Positions 689 through 6,582 of a stretch of 6,582 nt of DNA are shown in pieces; position 1 is the first letter of the stretch, and each line of letters begins with the position of its first letter. Both the position numbers and the translations under genes were made by a program. Source of the stretch: a bacterium. GTDB lineage: Bacteria > SZUA-182 > DTGQ01. Under the pieces are notes generated by a model. That model saw only the letters and a program-made list of their open reading frames with translations. It had not been told where the DNA came from and did not search any database. The stretch covers positions 1-6,582 of the forward strand of contig JAILZY010000138.1 of NCBI GenBank assembly GCA_023512255.1. The letters are read 5' to 3'.

Positions 689-1348
689 ATGAAAAAAACC
701 GCGGCTCTTATAGTCATAGGAACCCTTTTGATCGGCTCTTGTTATCTGATGAGCGGTTGTGCGGCCAGCAATACGGCTAAAGGCGCAGGAATTGGTGCAG
801 CAGCAGGGGCTACACTCGGTGGAATCATAGGGCATCAGTCAGGACATGGGGCTCAAGGCGCGATCATTGGAGGAGTTGCTGGTGGTGCTCTCGGTGCCCT
901 AATCGGCAAGCGTCTCGATAGACAAAAGGAGGAGTTGGAAAAGGTCCCTGGAATGCAAAATGTTCAGGTCAATGAACAGGAGCAGACAATTAGCGCCTCT
1001 ATCCAGATACTGTTTAATGTAGACAGTGATCAGATTAAACCGGGCGAAGCTAAAAAGCTCGATGAGTTAGCCGCTGTTTTCGCTAAGTATCCAGAAAATA
1101 TAGTGGTAATTGAAGGACACACTGACAGTGATGGCTCCGAGGAGTATAACCAAAAACTTTCAGAAAGAAGAGCCCGCTCGGTGGAGAATTATCTTAGAGG
1201 AAAGCACCTTAATATCGCAAGTCTCAGTTCTGTAGGGTATGGCGAATCAAGACCGATTGCATCAAATGACACGCCAGCGGGAAAAGCAGCTAATCGCCGG
1301 GTGGAGTTAAAAATTTCCGTTGATCCCAAAAGAGTTCCACAAGAATAA
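689..1348 (+). CDS. OmpA-family lipoprotein with glycine-zipper domain (YiaD-like)
   Basis: This 219-aa envelope protein probably tethers the outer membrane to peptidoglycan. Residues 1-24 form a lipoprotein signal (MKK, hydrophobic core) ending in MSGC, so C24 is the likely lipidated cysteine; C18 (IGSC) is an alternative. Residues 31-73 are a glycine zipper with GxxxG/GGxxG spacing, expected to pack as a membrane-embedded hairpin. A short charged linker follows (74-90). Residues 103-213 are an OmpA C-terminal domain with the peptidoglycan-contacting signature: GHTD (D146), then YNQKLSERRARSV (153-165), and a late NRRVELKI. Order and length match E. coli YiaD-type proteins. The start is supported by AAGGAGG at 674-680, 8 nt upstream. 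The gene stands alone, convergent with the cell-wall amidase gene to its right. Assignment to the family is secure; equivalence to YiaD is inferred from architecture. Confidence 0.9.
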   Translation: MKKTAALIVIGTLLIGSCYLMSGCAASNTAKGAGIGAAAGATLGGIIGHQSGHGAQGAIIGGVAGGALGALIGKRLDRQKEELEKVPGMQNVQVNEQEQTISASIQILFNVDSDQIKPGEAKKLDELAAVFAKYPENIVVIEGHTDSDGSEEYNQKLSERRARSVENYLRGKHLNIASLSSVGYGESRPIASNDTPAGKAANRRVELKISVDPKRVPQE

Positions 1349-1429: not shown

Positions 1430-2197
1430 TCAACAAGAGACATGACCAAAGCCAAGCAGCTTCTCCATCCGGCTAAAAACATATGAGAAGCCCTGAACCC
1501 GTGGGCTCTTATTCCCTTCAATCGTATAGAGCATACCATATTTAAGCTGATGAACTAACCCAACATGCCCCTGCCAGTTGTCTGCCTTAACCCGCCACCA
1601 GAAAACTAAATCTCCAGGCTGCGGAATATATCTATCAGAGGGGCTTTTGGCCCAGCCCTTTTTCTGAAATTTTTTCAATAAATCACGGGCGCTTGCCGAA
1701 TAAGAAAAGGGCATTTTTTCTTTTTCTCCACCAGCAGCCTGCAAAAAACACCAGCTTACAAACGAGGCACACCACGGATTCCCTGCGCCAAGTCCAGCTG
1801 GAGCCAAATACTTACAAACCCAAGGGCCTTGATTATTCCCACCAACTTCACCTGCTCCTGCTTTGAGCTCACTAATAGCCGCGCTCAAGGCTGCCCGCCC
1901 TATGCCGCTTCCTCCCGCCTCCTCGGGCGGCATCTCCTGGTAGTTTATAGCGACAGGGCGGTCAATCACAGGTTTAGGATGTGTGAGACTCCACCAGGTC
2001 AGCGGGCCTACCTGTCCATCTACCCGAAGCGGCTCACCATGCTGATCTAGATTTTGAGATTGAAAGGCCCGGACCGCATTGTATGTTTCTACTCCAAAGA
2101 TGCCATCAAGACTGACCGGAAAGCCGTGCTCGACTAAAAGTTTTTGAAGCTGTAAAACCTCTTCTCCTTGAGCCCCTTTCTTTAGTAGGCTACTCAT
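1430..2197 (-). CDS. Peptidoglycan-binding protein with CHAP-type amidase domain
   Basis: This 255-aa predicted cell-wall hydrolase has two modules. Residues about 5-72 are a PG_binding_1 three-helix domain (LKKGAQGEEVLQLQKLL, then DGIFGVETYNAVRAFQ and VDGQVGPLTWWSL). After a Pro/Gly-rich linker (73-100), residues about 102-255 are a CHAP/TIGR02594-like papain-fold amidase. The presumed catalytic cysteine is C143 in NPWCASFVSW, the histidine is H211 in GHVGLV, and the third polar residue is E227 or N229 in IEGN. PGDLVFW (194-200) is the usual strand before the His motif. Such enzymes cleave peptide or amide bonds in peptidoglycan. GGAGG (complement of 2205-2209) lies 7 nt before the ATG. No signal peptide is visible, which resembles phage endolysins or proteins released by a dedicated route; no holin or phage gene is adjacent. 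It is preceded on the same strand by the 1162-aa gene, but a hairpin element separates them, so co-transcription is doubtful. Confidence 0.85.
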   Translation of the reverse strand: MSSLLKKGAQGEEVLQLQKLLVEHGFPVSLDGIFGVETYNAVRAFQSQNLDQHGEPLRVDGQVGPLTWWSLTHPKPVIDRPVAINYQEMPPEEAGGSGIGRAALSAAISELKAGAGEVGGNNQGPWVCKYLAPAGLGAGNPWCASFVSWCFLQAAGGEKEKMPFSYSASARDLLKKFQKKGWAKSPSDRYIPQPGDLVFWWRVKADNWQGHVGLVHQLKYGMLYTIEGNKSPRVQGFSYVFSRMEKLLGFGHVSC

Positions 2198-2369: not shown

Positions 2370-5300
2370 TCAAGGCAATAAGTTATCAAGACATGAAGTC
2401 TGTCCCAAATACTTCTTAAACAGGCATAGAGCATCTGCTGGAGAAAAAGCGCCATCCCGATTAACATCTGCACACTCAGGGCACGGACCTAATCCCAAAT
2501 AGCACCGGAAGGCAATTAGCGCATCCTGCGGCGTGATCGCTCCATCTGCATTCAGATCCCCCGTGCAGGCTCTGAGGCAGAGACAGCCGCCAGATGAGGA
2601 AAGATTAGCCAAATCATCGGTTAGTTTCTCAAGCCCAAGTGAGAAGCACTCATTGTCAAACCCTCCAGCTATCTTAAATTTCAACCAGACAATATAGCCG
2701 CTCGCTTTCTTCTGGATACCACCAGCAGTAGATATTCCAGCTACTCTGAGCCTGCCAGGGCTGACCTTACTGACATCGAACAGGGCAAAAGAGGCGACCA
2801 AATCTCCCCGCTCATAGGCCATATATTCCATGACAGCAGGATCATAGGTAAATTCAAACCCCAGGCTACTAATCCCATACGGCGCAACTTGGATCCGCAC
2901 CGGAATCCGCACTTCATCTCCTCTTCTGCCCTGGGCAGCAGGCACATCTAGATTGCCCGAATCATCTTCCTGACATACCCGCGGCTGCGGGTAGCAGCCA
3001 ACCCATTGACCATGCTGGCAGGTGGCTTTGGTTTTCCCATCCGGGCAAACTTGATAAAGCTCCTCATCTATCTTGCCGTCGCAATCATTATCGAGGCCAT
3101 CGCACACCTCATCCTGAGGCTTGGGGGCAGTACAGCCAACCCAGCGGCCATTTTGGCAAATTTCTTGGCCACTTCCACAAGCCGTGGAGCAATCTCTGAC
3201 CAGCTCCTCATCTATCTTGCCATCACCATCATTGTCCCGGCCATCGCAGATCTCCTGAGCGATCCTCCCAGCGACAATTTCCCCATAGCCCTCTCTAGTC
3301 AAGATCGTCTTGCCAAACTGCACCGAAAGGGCCCTCTTCCCCGGCCAGGCGTTTTGATCGACCGCAAACTCAACTAGATATCTATTTCCCTTCTCGCCGC
3401 GATCGGCCTCAAGCACTCTCGTCCTCACTCCCTGGCCAAGGTTGACTCTCAAGCTCTCTGCACTCGGAGAGGCATTGACAATACTGATCCATTGCCGGAA
3501 GCTTTTTCCCTGCTCAAATAAGAGGGGCTTTTCCAATTTGATATCAAGATAGGGCTGATATACGTTCTGAGTCAGCCCACCGCTAGTCTCTGCATAGGCG
3601 GAAAACCTAGATGGTTTATAACTCTTCAAGACCTCCTTATAGTTTGTTCCATACTCATATTCTGCACGAGGGGCAGGATATGAAGACTCAGTAACTGTAA
3701 AACAGCTCCGAATGGTAAAGCGGCTGATCAGCCGGCGAACATAAGCCACTGATGCGGCTGATGAAGAAATATTCAACTTTGCAGTATCGAATAGAGCAGT
3801 GTAGATTCCATCCTCGGCAACCTTATCCCCATTTTGGCCACTATCAGACATCTCAACCGTGGTTATCAGGAGGCCGTTCGGGTCGTATATCCGCGACAGG
3901 ACATCTACTTTAGTCAGTCGATATTTATTGGAAACCGAAGCATAGATGGGCACTTTGGGATAATCCTTTCCGAAGCTAATCAGGGGAGTATCGAGCCAGA
4001 CCTGCGCATCAATATCCTGATTATCGATATAGGCTAAAAGATATACATTCCCCTGAGTTATTGATGGCCCTGTGTAGGCAGCGGTAGTGCCTATTGGCCG
4101 GCTAGCCATGATGGTGGCGGTCCATTGACCAGACTGAGGCTTTTTCACCTTCCGTCCTAGAAATCTTCCCTTCTGCTGGGTATTGTCAAGGCTGCTGGAA
4201 AAGGTAGCTGAGGCTGGATTCGCTAGGCTAAAGGAGTAATTTTGAACATTTACACTTTCTGGAAATAGGTAAAATTTCACATCCTTTGAATTCTCAGGAA
4301 CCGTGAAACTGATGGTGCTATAGAACAGGTTATTATTGCCCAAGGTCACCGTTTTCCACTCAAGCTTTCCAAAATGGTTATACATGACTGTCCAGCCGCG
4401 CTTTTTGGCTATTGATTTTACTATGCCCATTTTCAAATTCATCAGGCTTCCGTCATTCTCTGACATGATGACATTCTCGCCGCTTGTTTCCGAAGCGATA
4501 TTCTGCATGGTTGTCTCGTCCGCATCACCGTAGGAAAAGGTATGGATGATCACTCCAGCATCCCGAGCCCGCTCTACCTGGGTCCAAAGGTCCTCTCCTG
4601 TGGTCTGTCGGCCATCGGACATAAGAAAAATTTCCGCGCCAGCCATATGATCTGGACCATGAGTGGCCGCAAAGGTATCGAGCGCGGTTTTCAGAGCCAG
4701 GTGAATATTAGTCAGGCCGGTTGGCTCGAGGAAGTTAGTCAGAGTGCTGGCGCTGTTATAACGGTCATAATTAAAAAGTTTATCAACTGCATGATTATAA
4801 GCAAAGGTGCCAATGTAGTCATCTGGCTCTGAGCTGTGATATAAGAACATGCCAGCTTCCTGAACATACTGGCTGGCCGGAATGCCATACTCTTCATAGC
4901 TCATACTGCCGGAGCGATCAAGAAGCAAGATTCTTCCTGGTACCGCACCCTCATGCTCCACATATCTTAATTCGACCTCGGGCATGGTTGAAAAGTCGAT
5001 TGCCGGTCTGACCCCGTCAGTGTGATGTCCGATCAGGTCAACATGATTAAGACAAGCCACTGCCCAGCCATCAAGAGCGTACAACTGATTAACCCACTCA
5101 TTTATCGGGCCGTCATTAGCAGGGTCAGCATCATCAATTACCGCTGGCGTCAAGGCTTGGGTTACCAATGTTCCGGTTGAGGGATCGGTGTATTCAATAG
5201 TGATTGAATGATCGCTGTGATTACAGAACTGGTGAGGCGTATTGGCATTCATAACCGTAATAGGGTCGCCAACAGTTACCCGAACCGGAAAGCTTGCTTC

Positions 5301-5858
5301 TCCAGGAAAGTGGCCCGAATAATATCCGTAATCCTTACTGTATTCATCGGAAAGGCCATAAAAATAATGCCCGAATTCATGGGAGGCCACATCGTGAATG
5401 TTAGACCTCCAGCCCCGTCGAATATTCAAATGATGCACTAGACTGTTTATCCATCCGCCTAGGGTAGCCGAAGATGTGCCCGGGCCCATATCCCAGCGGA
5501 TATCAGCAGATGCCCAGGCTCTGGCCTCATTACTGATGAGCACTCGGCGGATGTAGTGCTTTCCTTCGCTCATCTCATAGACATGCTGAGCAAAGAGCCG
5601 AAGATCATGCTCCAATTTATCTTTAGCCTGCCACTGATGTCCACTGCTGTCAAGAATGGGATTGCCAGAGTTGTCAGTAACTAGGTCATGATCAAGATCA
5701 CCGCTGTAGGACAAACTTACGGTAATGCCGCCATCGGCTCCGACACTGGCTGCCTGGACAGAACGAATACAGCCAGAGGGTAATAATCCGAATGATAATA
5801 ATAATGATAACAAAAGCGGCAATGAAACTGCAATAATGAAGCTGGTTTTTTTGAACAT
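2370..5858 (-). CDS. Secreted CLCA-like metallopeptidase/VWA protein with MopE, cohesin and dockerin modules
   Basis: This 1162-aa exported protein has a signal sequence at 1-36 (MFKK, long Leu-rich core). Cleavage is probably at VQA|AS; C30 is a poor lipobox because P27 is at -3. Residues about 40-290 are a CLCA N-terminal peptidase-like domain with HEFGHYFYGLSDEY at 160-173. This matches the CLCA zinc motif HExxHxxxGxxDE (H160, E161, H164, D171/E172). Residues about 305-485 are a von Willebrand A domain with an intact metal site: DRSGS (D314, S316, S318), T383 and D415. Residues 490-860 look like beta-sandwich/FN3-like segments. Two MopE-like calcium motifs follow (871-909, 919-955), then a cohesin-like domain (about 968-1093) and a dockerin (1099-1158) with calcium loops D1101-D1112 and D1131-D1142. 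It is plausibly a surface protease/adhesin. AGGAGG (complement of 5868-5873) precedes the ATG by 9 nt. CLCA proteins are peptidase-like rather than channels; the substrate is unknown. Confidence 0.88.
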   Translation of the reverse strand: MFKKTSFIIAVSLPLLLSLLLSFGLLPSGCIRSVQAASVGADGGITVSLSYSGDLDHDLVTDNSGNPILDSSGHQWQAKDKLEHDLRLFAQHVYEMSEGKHYIRRVLISNEARAWASADIRWDMGPGTSSATLGGWINSLVHHLNIRRGWRSNIHDVASHEFGHYFYGLSDEYSKDYGYYSGHFPGEASFPVRVTVGDPITVMNANTPHQFCNHSDHSITIEYTDPSTGTLVTQALTPAVIDDADPANDGPINEWVNQLYALDGWAVACLNHVDLIGHHTDGVRPAIDFSTMPEVELRYVEHEGAVPGRILLLDRSGSMSYEEYGIPASQYVQEAGMFLYHSSEPDDYIGTFAYNHAVDKLFNYDRYNSASTLTNFLEPTGLTNIHLALKTALDTFAATHGPDHMAGAEIFLMSDGRQTTGEDLWTQVERARDAGVIIHTFSYGDADETTMQNIASETSGENVIMSENDGSLMNLKMGIVKSIAKKRGWTVMYNHFGKLEWKTVTLGNNNLFYSTISFTVPENSKDVKFYLFPESVNVQNYSFSLANPASATFSSSLDNTQQKGRFLGRKVKKPQSGQWTATIMASRPIGTTAAYTGPSITQGNVYLLAYIDNQDIDAQVWLDTPLISFGKDYPKVPIYASVSNKYRLTKVDVLSRIYDPNGLLITTVEMSDSGQNGDKVAEDGIYTALFDTAKLNISSSAASVAYVRRLISRFTIRSCFTVTESSYPAPRAEYEYGTNYKEVLKSYKPSRFSAYAETSGGLTQNVYQPYLDIKLEKPLLFEQGKSFRQWISIVNASPSAESLRVNLGQGVRTRVLEADRGEKGNRYLVEFAVDQNAWPGKRALSVQFGKTILTREGYGEIVAGRIAQEICDGRDNDGDGKIDEELVRDCSTACGSGQEICQNGRWVGCTAPKPQDEVCDGLDNDCDGKIDEELYQVCPDGKTKATCQHGQWVGCYPQPRVCQEDDSGNLDVPAAQGRRGDEVRIPVRIQVAPYGISSLGFEFTYDPAVMEYMAYERGDLVASFALFDVSKVSPGRLRVAGISTAGGIQKKASGYIVWLKFKIAGGFDNECFSLGLEKLTDDLANLSSSGGCLCLRACTGDLNADGAITPQDALIAFRCYLGLGPCPECADVNRDGAFSPADALCLFKKYLGQTSCLDNLLP
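2994..3248 (-). repeat. Two tandem MopE-like Cys/Asp-rich units inside the large gene
   Basis: Within the 1162-aa protein, residues 871-909 and 919-955 are repeats of one design: CDGxDNDxDGKIDEEL, a variable cysteine-bearing stretch, then CQxGxWVGC. The DNA of the two units is also clearly related, for instance the CTCCTCATCTATCTTGCC stretch near 3060 and again near 3207. Such Asp-rich loops are taken to bind calcium in the MopE-type motif family. The first unit has Gly (878) where the second has Cys (926) in DND(C)DG, so the usual cysteine pairing must differ between them. Confidence 0.75.
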
Positions 5859-6082
5859 TGTTCATCTCCTCCTGTAAGGGGGGTAATAAGTTAGTAGTGG
5901 ATATTAAGTTATTGGTGTATACAAGGTAATCTTTTTATGTATTTTAAGGGGAAGATTCCGATTGCAGACGCAGGCGCGAACTTCAATGGTAAATCGACGA
6001 TCAGCGGATGAGCGAGATTATTTCTTTCACCAACCCCTATTATGGTATTGTTTTGGTGCAAAATATATGCCAAGCAAGAAAG
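5859..6082. other. AT-rich leader of the large gene containing a GC-richer structured segment
   Basis: These 224 bases upstream of the large minus-strand gene hold no confident gene. The part next to the start codon is AT-rich with the AGGAGG ribosome site. In contrast, about 5946-6038 is GC-richer and shows nested complementarity. AGGGG/CCCCT (5947-5951 with 6034-6038) could close the segment. Inside it, a bulged CC(G)ATTG pairs with CAATGG, and CGATCA pairs with TGAGCG with one mismatch around the loop GCGGA. A 24-codon plus-strand ORF (5937-6011) and an open minus-strand frame both cross it. It may be a 5' untranslated structured RNA, a small gene or a gene remnant. I matched it to no known riboswitch consensus, and I could not place a promoter. 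Confidence 0.3.
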
Positions 6083-6226
6083 ATTTTGGAAGGAACCCTT
6101 TTTGAAAAAGGGTTCCTTCCAAACCATCCTCCTAAAACTTTAATATCTTAACTTAATATTAAAGTTTTAGGAAAAGGGTTACAAGGGGAAAACCCTTACT
6201 CGATAAGGGTTTTCCCCTTTAATTTA
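6083..6226 (-). repeat. Triple-hairpin repeat element, copy B (inverted relative to copy A)
   Basis: Reading the plus strand, the hairpins of copy A appear in reverse order. Hairpin 3 pairs 6085-6102 with 6106-6123 (18 bp, TGA tip). Hairpin 2 pairs 6131-6146 with 6156-6171 (16 bp, 9-nt loop). Hairpin 1 pairs 6183-6198 with 6204-6219 (16 bp, CTCGA tip). The reverse complement aligns with copy A almost throughout the arms. The linkers also match, including the 19-nt AGGAGGATGGTTTGGAAGG. Differences concentrate in the hairpin tips, one inserted base between hairpins 1 and 2, and a longer central hairpin. Flanking TAAATTA and AAAAT are shared with copy A. No target-site duplication is evident. 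It lies between the divergent starts of the large gene and the exported-protein gene. Confidence 0.85.
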
Positions 6227-6257
6227 ATGTCAACGAAGATGACAGCAGGTAAACAAG

Positions 6258-6347
6258 ATGGACAAATATGCCGATGAATTATCAGTTTTAACATCTTCAG
6301 TAATTCAGCGTTCGGATTGTAATCAAGATGAGGAAAAATCATTATGA
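6258..6347 (+). CDS. Possible 29-aa small ORF translationally coupled to the next gene
   Basis: An ATG at 6258 opens a 29-codon frame (starting MDKYADELSV, ending DEEKSL), hydrophilic and mostly acidic, with one cysteine. Its stop TGA (6345-6347) overlaps the ATG of the following gene (6344-6346) as ATGA, a classic arrangement for translational coupling. The ribosome site is weak (CAGG around 6246-6249, 8 nt upstream). The frame is closed by a stop at 6240-6242, so it cannot be longer. No family is recognised. It may be a leader peptide or a chance frame; the overlap is the only real support. Confidence 0.2.
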   Translation: MDKYADELSVLTSSVIQRSDCNQDEEKSL

Positions 6348-6582
6348 AAAAGAAGAGAGCGGTTTTGATCCTAATTATACTGGTCAATATCGGATGCATT
6401 CTTGGCTGGCCCTTTGAGTGTGGATTTGCAGGTGAGGCCGATCAGCCCCTATTCTTGACCGGGGATGGACTTTGTGGCCAAGATTTCAACCAATCCCCAA
6501 GCTCTTGGGAGCTTCCATTCCAATATGCCCAGACCTCCTGGCCATCCATACACCGGGATGGCCGAAACTCAAACTACCTCCC
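6344..6582 (+). CDS. Exported protein, N-terminal part only (possible beta-propeller)
   Basis: The frame is open from 6344 to the window end, giving 79 complete codons of a longer protein. Residues 1-29 form a signal peptide: MKKKR, then a hydrophobic stretch to about residue 22, with likely cleavage near GFA|GE (29/30). C18 lies in NIGC, a poor lipobox, so lipidation is doubtful. The start is supported by GAGGA at 6330-6334, 9 nt upstream. The mature start is polar, and near its end comes TSWPSIHRDGRNSNYLP. This resembles the first strand of PQQ-like beta-propeller proteins, which often read 'WP.f..D..nsg'. That is a weak match from a single segment. It is divergent from the large secreted gene, with repeat copy B between them. 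Confidence 0.75.
   Translation, partial: MKKKRAVLILIILVNIGCILGWPFECGFAGEADQPLFLTGDGLCGQDFNQSPSSWELPFQYAQTSWPSIHRDGRNSNYL

Follow-up and report, generated by a model that had tools for sequence, protein, structure and literature searches.

The 1162-residue protein encoded at positions 2370..5858 of the window (the whole stretch of DNA analysed, 6582 nt, an entire contig numbered 1-6582) is, on balance, best explained as a secreted metallopeptidase that would be docked into a non-cellulosomal, protease-bearing extracellular complex of at least 13 proteins carrying a cohesin-dockerin tandem. Pfam and NCBIfam matches, together with an orthologue, identify the open reading frame (ORF) as a CLCA-like metallopeptidase with cohesin and dockerin modules. 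From the N-terminus, it consists of a signal peptide, a zincin motif, a VWA domain, a CLCA-like beta region, MopE-type motifs, a type I cohesin and a type I dockerin. The ORF and all of its features given below lie on the minus strand.

The ATG start codon is preceded by a Shine-Dalgarno-like AGGAGG (5868..5873), and residues 1-36 (5751..5858) form a predicted signal peptide, as judged from the sequence and from comparison with the orthologue. A lipoprotein reading was considered unlikely, since the signal-peptide cysteine, C30, is missing in the orthologue, which points to a type I signal peptide. This same-genus orthologue (L108:7790-11383) is 77% identical and keeps the whole domain order, with three MopE copies versus two in the window protein. 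The dN/dS values of the pair range from 0.05 to 0.18 over all domains (VWA 0.045, dockerin 0.064, zincin 0.07, cohesin at most 0.18), and they are rough because dS is near saturation. Given the retained order and these values in every domain, the ORF is taken to be a real, constrained gene.

A YiaD-family glycine-zipper/OmpA lipoprotein gene (689-1348, plus strand) is a conserved convergent neighbour in both genomes. Directly downstream of the ORF and on the same strand lies a peptidoglycan-binding plus CHAP gene (1430-2197, minus strand), which was not found at the corresponding position beside the orthologue in G001. The long upstream stretch, 5859-6582, has no obvious gene, contains the inverted repeat AAGGGGAAAACCCTTATCGAGTAAGGGTTTTCCCCTT (minus strand) and is largely not conserved in the orthologue. 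An Rfam scan gave no match.

The zincin-like metallopeptidase domain, delimited by profile searches and alignment, covers residues 44-304 (4947..5729). Its zinc-site motif, HEFGHYFYGLSDEY (residues 160-173; 5340..5381), bears out the CLCA zinc motif HExxHxxxGxxDE that the first-pass annotation had read at this place, and it is the sole HE..H...G..DE in the 1162 residues, where about 9e-6 such motifs are expected from composition. A candidate Met-turn, TVM (201-203; 5250..5258), followed by QFC212, is suggested by the alignment.

Relatives in three other lineages were found with a two-row profile, which matched a tandem pair in genome G210 (E 4e-12 and 7e-7), one protein in G235 (1e-11) and one in G145 (5e-4). 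A six-row profile then gave matches in 26 of the 301 genomes of the G210 phylum, of which seven that lie nearest to the family and carry the motif were taken into the alignment. The final alignment holds the window protein and 12 relatives: the same-genus orthologue, nine proteins from one other phylum and one from each of two further lineages. The zinc ligands of homologues had been proposed as a check, and they are kept: the 13 members, which come from four lineages and of which seven were chosen partly by motif, all agree at the motif's H, E, G, H, D, E and Y positions, so that HExGH and DEY stand in every one of the 12 aligned relatives. A large divergent branch of the zincin family in the G210 phylum (L144-L165) has motifs of the type HELGHxxxxLxDxY, with D[ND]Y or DGY in place of the acidic DEY.

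Membership of named families was also studied. CLCA_N (PF08434) has no match in the window protein or in its own genome, and it gives weak matches below the cut-off in 8 of the 13 family members (best E 0.0023). Peptidase family M64 matches all 13 weakly (best E about 0.002), with 12.2 bits against a cut-off of 26 and over 25 residues only for PF09471 in the window protein. Comparison of the family with ten M64 sequences by hhalign gave a probability of 95.5%, limited to 59 columns around the active site. In the AF2 model of residues 38-741, built with 13 sequences, the mean pLDDT was 56.5; the VWA domain is good and the zincin poor, with pLDDT below 50 over much of model residues 87-248, and the zincin core is predicted as beta-alpha-beta-beta followed by the HExxH helix. 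Foldseek with this model, in which the zincin has low pLDDT, returned no zincin among the 50 matches listed. From the profile comparisons, we conclude that the N-terminal domain probably represents an unnamed bacterial zincin family, weakly near both CLCA_N and M64.

Single-sequence tblastn of the zincin against plasmids and phages gave no match. With the relative L135 as the query, plasmid matches begin at or after its VWA region, and its segment containing the zincin and part of what follows gave none. A search with PF08434 over 386 relatives and 40 further genomes found no true CLCA; the control genomes gave none either, and therefore a blank with this model is not proof of absence. One weak PF08434 match, L110, was set aside, as M64 fits it better.

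The VWA domain follows at residues 310-472 (4443..4931; Pfam E 2e-13, above the gathering cut-off, and Foldseek). Its MIDAS motif DRSGS (314-318; 4905..4919) is completed by T383, assigned by eye, and D415, so the complete MIDAS after the zincin, in CLCA order, stands as first annotated. The matches listed by Foldseek for the 38-741 model are led by VWA domains, including that of human CLCA1 at 24% identity. The NCBIfam CLCA model TIGR00868 aligns co-linearly over residues 311-714 with E 1e-12; the match stays well short of the cut-off set for whole proteins. Behind the VWA domain, residues 636-716 (3711..3953) form a putative CLCA-like beta region, which includes a choice-of-anchor X motif at 669-692 (NCBIfam).

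Pieces freed of the VWA domain were scanned with the CLCA model to see whether its match is due to VWA only. Matches at the corresponding model positions were obtained for L133 (1.4e-11), L135 (5.8e-9) and L168, a protein devoid of VWA (1.5e-7), and no CLCA match was seen for L134. The window protein's own VWA-free piece gave a faint co-linear match (E 0.039), and the whole-model cut-off of TIGR00868 was not reached. Since VWA-free pieces still match the CLCA model, the beta region is judged by sequence to be CLCA-like across the family and faintly so in the window protein itself. The earlier label 'CLCA-type' is thus supported for the VWA and, more faintly, for the post-VWA beta region, and unsupported as CLCA_N membership.

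Most relatives show the order zincin, VWA and a DGxY-type beta region, and four have the zincin and the beta region without VWA. The MIDAS is degraded or the VWA absent in several relatives; therefore, the family can do without a VWA domain. Since some relatives keep the zincin without VWA, the zincin appears to be its core.

The C-terminal part begins with an unannotated beta-sandwich at residues about 771-862 (3273..3548; AF2 pLDDT about 72-88). Two MopE-type DNDxDGKIDEE motifs (residues 871-932; 3063..3248; Pfam 7e-7), a type I cohesin (969-1064; 2667..2954; Pfam E 7e-9) and a type I dockerin (1100-1148; 2415..2561; Pfam E 2e-5) follow, all above their gathering cut-offs, and the MopE, cohesin and dockerin modules of the first-pass annotation are thereby confirmed. 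The cohesin assignment is given by both the sequence profile and the predicted fold: in the AF2 model of residues 742-1162, its pLDDT was about 95 and that of the dockerin mostly 80-92, and Foldseek with this model placed type I cohesins on top of a list that includes the non-cellulosomal Archaeoglobus cohesin 2xdh. The dockerin is assigned by its profile and by two intact calcium loops (1101-1112 and 1131-1142), both canonical. A pattern scan of genome contigs gave almost only MopE-type repeats, mostly in Myxococcota, and was rejected as homology evidence since the search patterns fell on MopE.

In the relatives, this end of the protein is different. In L135 it is a T9SS sorting tail, by both Pfam (5.6e-7) and NCBIfam (1e-11), the proteins of the G210 phylum end after PPC-like stretches recognised by eye, and the end of L134 looks dockerin-like by eye and was undetected by Pfam at E 1. 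As judged by sequence, the C-terminus is the changeable part of the zincin family, its module differing by lineage (cohesin-dockerin, T9SS tail or PPC-like end).

The genome of the window protein holds 20 dockerin and 23 cohesin places. A cohesin followed by a dockerin was found in 13 proteins, 11 by coordinates (same frame, short gap), a twelfth (L092) and, by alignment, a thirteenth (L094). The tandem is usually C-terminal, many proteins ending in ...KYLGQPSCLD or close to that; in C81 (L101) it appears internal. Eleven of the tandem tails share 42-53% identity with the window protein's own, and across the tandem proteins the dockerin loops (ITPxDAL and VTPADAL) hardly differ, which suggests shared partners.

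Two further peptidases bear such tails: a gingipain-like Peptidase C25 with its C25 propeptide (L100:29-2659, plus strand) and a papain-like Peptidase C1 (L095, E 6e-6). Alongside these same-tailed peptidases, L094 and L099 combine beta-propellers and Kazal-type protease-inhibitor domains with a cohesin-dockerin tail, and Lcl_C repeats are another partner domain type. Dockerin-only proteins include the hexapeptide-repeat protein L093 and the beta-helix protein L096. L093:1061-1978 (minus strand), which by eye looks like a carbonic anhydrase of the gamma type, starts with a signal-like stretch, has its dockerin at the C-terminus and would be an unusual secreted cargo. Among the cohesin-only proteins, L104:1923-3758 has two cohesins and the lipobox LAGC and is a candidate anchor. 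Three others (L100:13743-16997, L106:435-6299 and L107:1664-2806) have in common odd W/Y/N/S/P-rich C-termini with an aromatic final residue, possibly a new type of anchor.

Pfam scanning of 22 dockerin/cohesin ORFs of this genome found no glycoside hydrolase catalytic domain and no protein with more than two cohesin stretches; the marks of a cellulosome, dockerin-bearing glycoside hydrolases and a many-cohesin scaffoldin, are both missing from these 22. Cohesins occur in 8 of the 9 genomes of the lineage that were searched, with 1 to 25 per genome.

Taken together, the protein would be exported by Sec through its signal peptide. Zinc would be held by H160, H164 and a downstream acid of DEY, with E161 as the catalyst, roles suggested by their conservation, while the VWA MIDAS may bind a metal and also a protein, as ligand or substrate. 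The dockerin would dock, in trans and dependent on calcium, onto cohesins of other surface proteins such as L104:1923-3758, and the protein's own cohesin may take the dockerin of another protein; the modules are observed and their pairing is predicted. The complex probably degrades extracellular protein jointly with the same-tailed C25 and papain-like peptidases. Self-association of the window protein is plausible; with a network extending over the genome, docking with other proteins is at least as likely.

An unlikely alternative, though one to be taken seriously, is that the tandem works without any multi-protein complex, either as an intramolecular clasp with the dockerin on its own cohesin or as a C-terminal sorting or stability module for an export or anchoring machine. 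Few residues separate cohesin and dockerin in at least ten proteins, where the tandem is mostly at the extreme C-terminus and often ends in SCLD, and L135 has the same core with a T9SS tail, as if the C-terminus were an interchangeable anchoring slot. However, dockerin-only and cohesin-only proteins in the same genome fit pairing in trans, and the calcium loops and adjoining residues are conserved. More doubtful is an extension of the docking model, in which the tandem proteins would join head-to-tail, needing no scaffold, to build an extracellular fibre or mesh that bears proteases, and the metallopeptidase would represent a sister family, in prokaryotes, of animal CLCA. Such polymers are conceivable since plug and socket are present on every one of these proteins; if true, the polymer would correspond to a cellulosome that degrades protein and has no scaffoldin of its own.

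The conservation of the zincin bears on a reading that we hold less probable still, namely that of a surface adhesin or matrix protein in which the VWA does the work and the zincin is inactive or only self-processing. HExGH and DEY are invariant in all 13 members (the motif being part of the choice for seven), the zincin dN/dS is low, and the zincin, as the core, is kept in some VWA-less relatives. These points speak against an adhesin, despite the intact MIDAS, the multi-domain, mostly beta build and the discussion of CLCAs as self-cleaving proteins in a family with substituted sites (PMC3650047). Finally, a true CLCA gained by bacteria from animals, following the transfer scenario of Lenart et al. 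2013, is highly improbable: the domain order, the co-linear TIGR00868 match and the CLCA1 VWA listed by Foldseek are as it would predict, but PF08434 does not match the protein, and the diversity of the zincin family within bacteria does not suggest a recent animal origin.

Compared with CLCA proteins (animal CLCA1-4 and bacterial CLCAs, PMC3650047), the window protein is alike in the order zincin, VWA with MIDAS and beta region, in HExxHxxxGxxDE and in the co-linearity with TIGR00868. Unlike them, its zincin is without a CLCA_N match, and it has extra MopE, cohesin and dockerin modules, none of which is named in the main text of Lenart et al. 2013. With M64 (IgA peptidase-like) it shares the motif HEFGHxxxGLxDEY and differs in that the similarity is confined to the active-site columns, with a Pfam score below the cut-off. 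A bacterial metallopeptidase family with a CLCA build and its own zincin may offer bacterial proteins, soluble ones, as models of the animal family, which is under medical study.

In Ca. Stygibacter (Cloacimonadota), dockerins on C25 and S8 peptidases were proposed to form a cellulosome-like extracellular protein-degrading complex (PMC8542988), and the idea of a cohesin-dockerin complex that bears proteases thus has a precedent. Neither a CLCA-like core with a cohesin-dockerin tail nor a network in which most dockerin proteins bear both modules was found described in the open-access papers covered. In the present genome, the cohesin-dockerin network appears to include three peptidases and no enzyme recognisable as carbohydrate-cutting, and many of its components bear both modules. 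The type I-like cohesin fold outside cellulosomes is shared with Archaeoglobus fulgidus 2xdh, which has other partner domains, compared with the protease core here. With Ca. Stygibacter, the present genome shares a gingipain-like C25 with a C-terminal dockerin; the scaffoldin of that organism, 3,755 aa long, has repeated cohesins and CBMs, whereas here most dockerin-bearing components have their own cohesin and a CLCA-like metallopeptidase is included.
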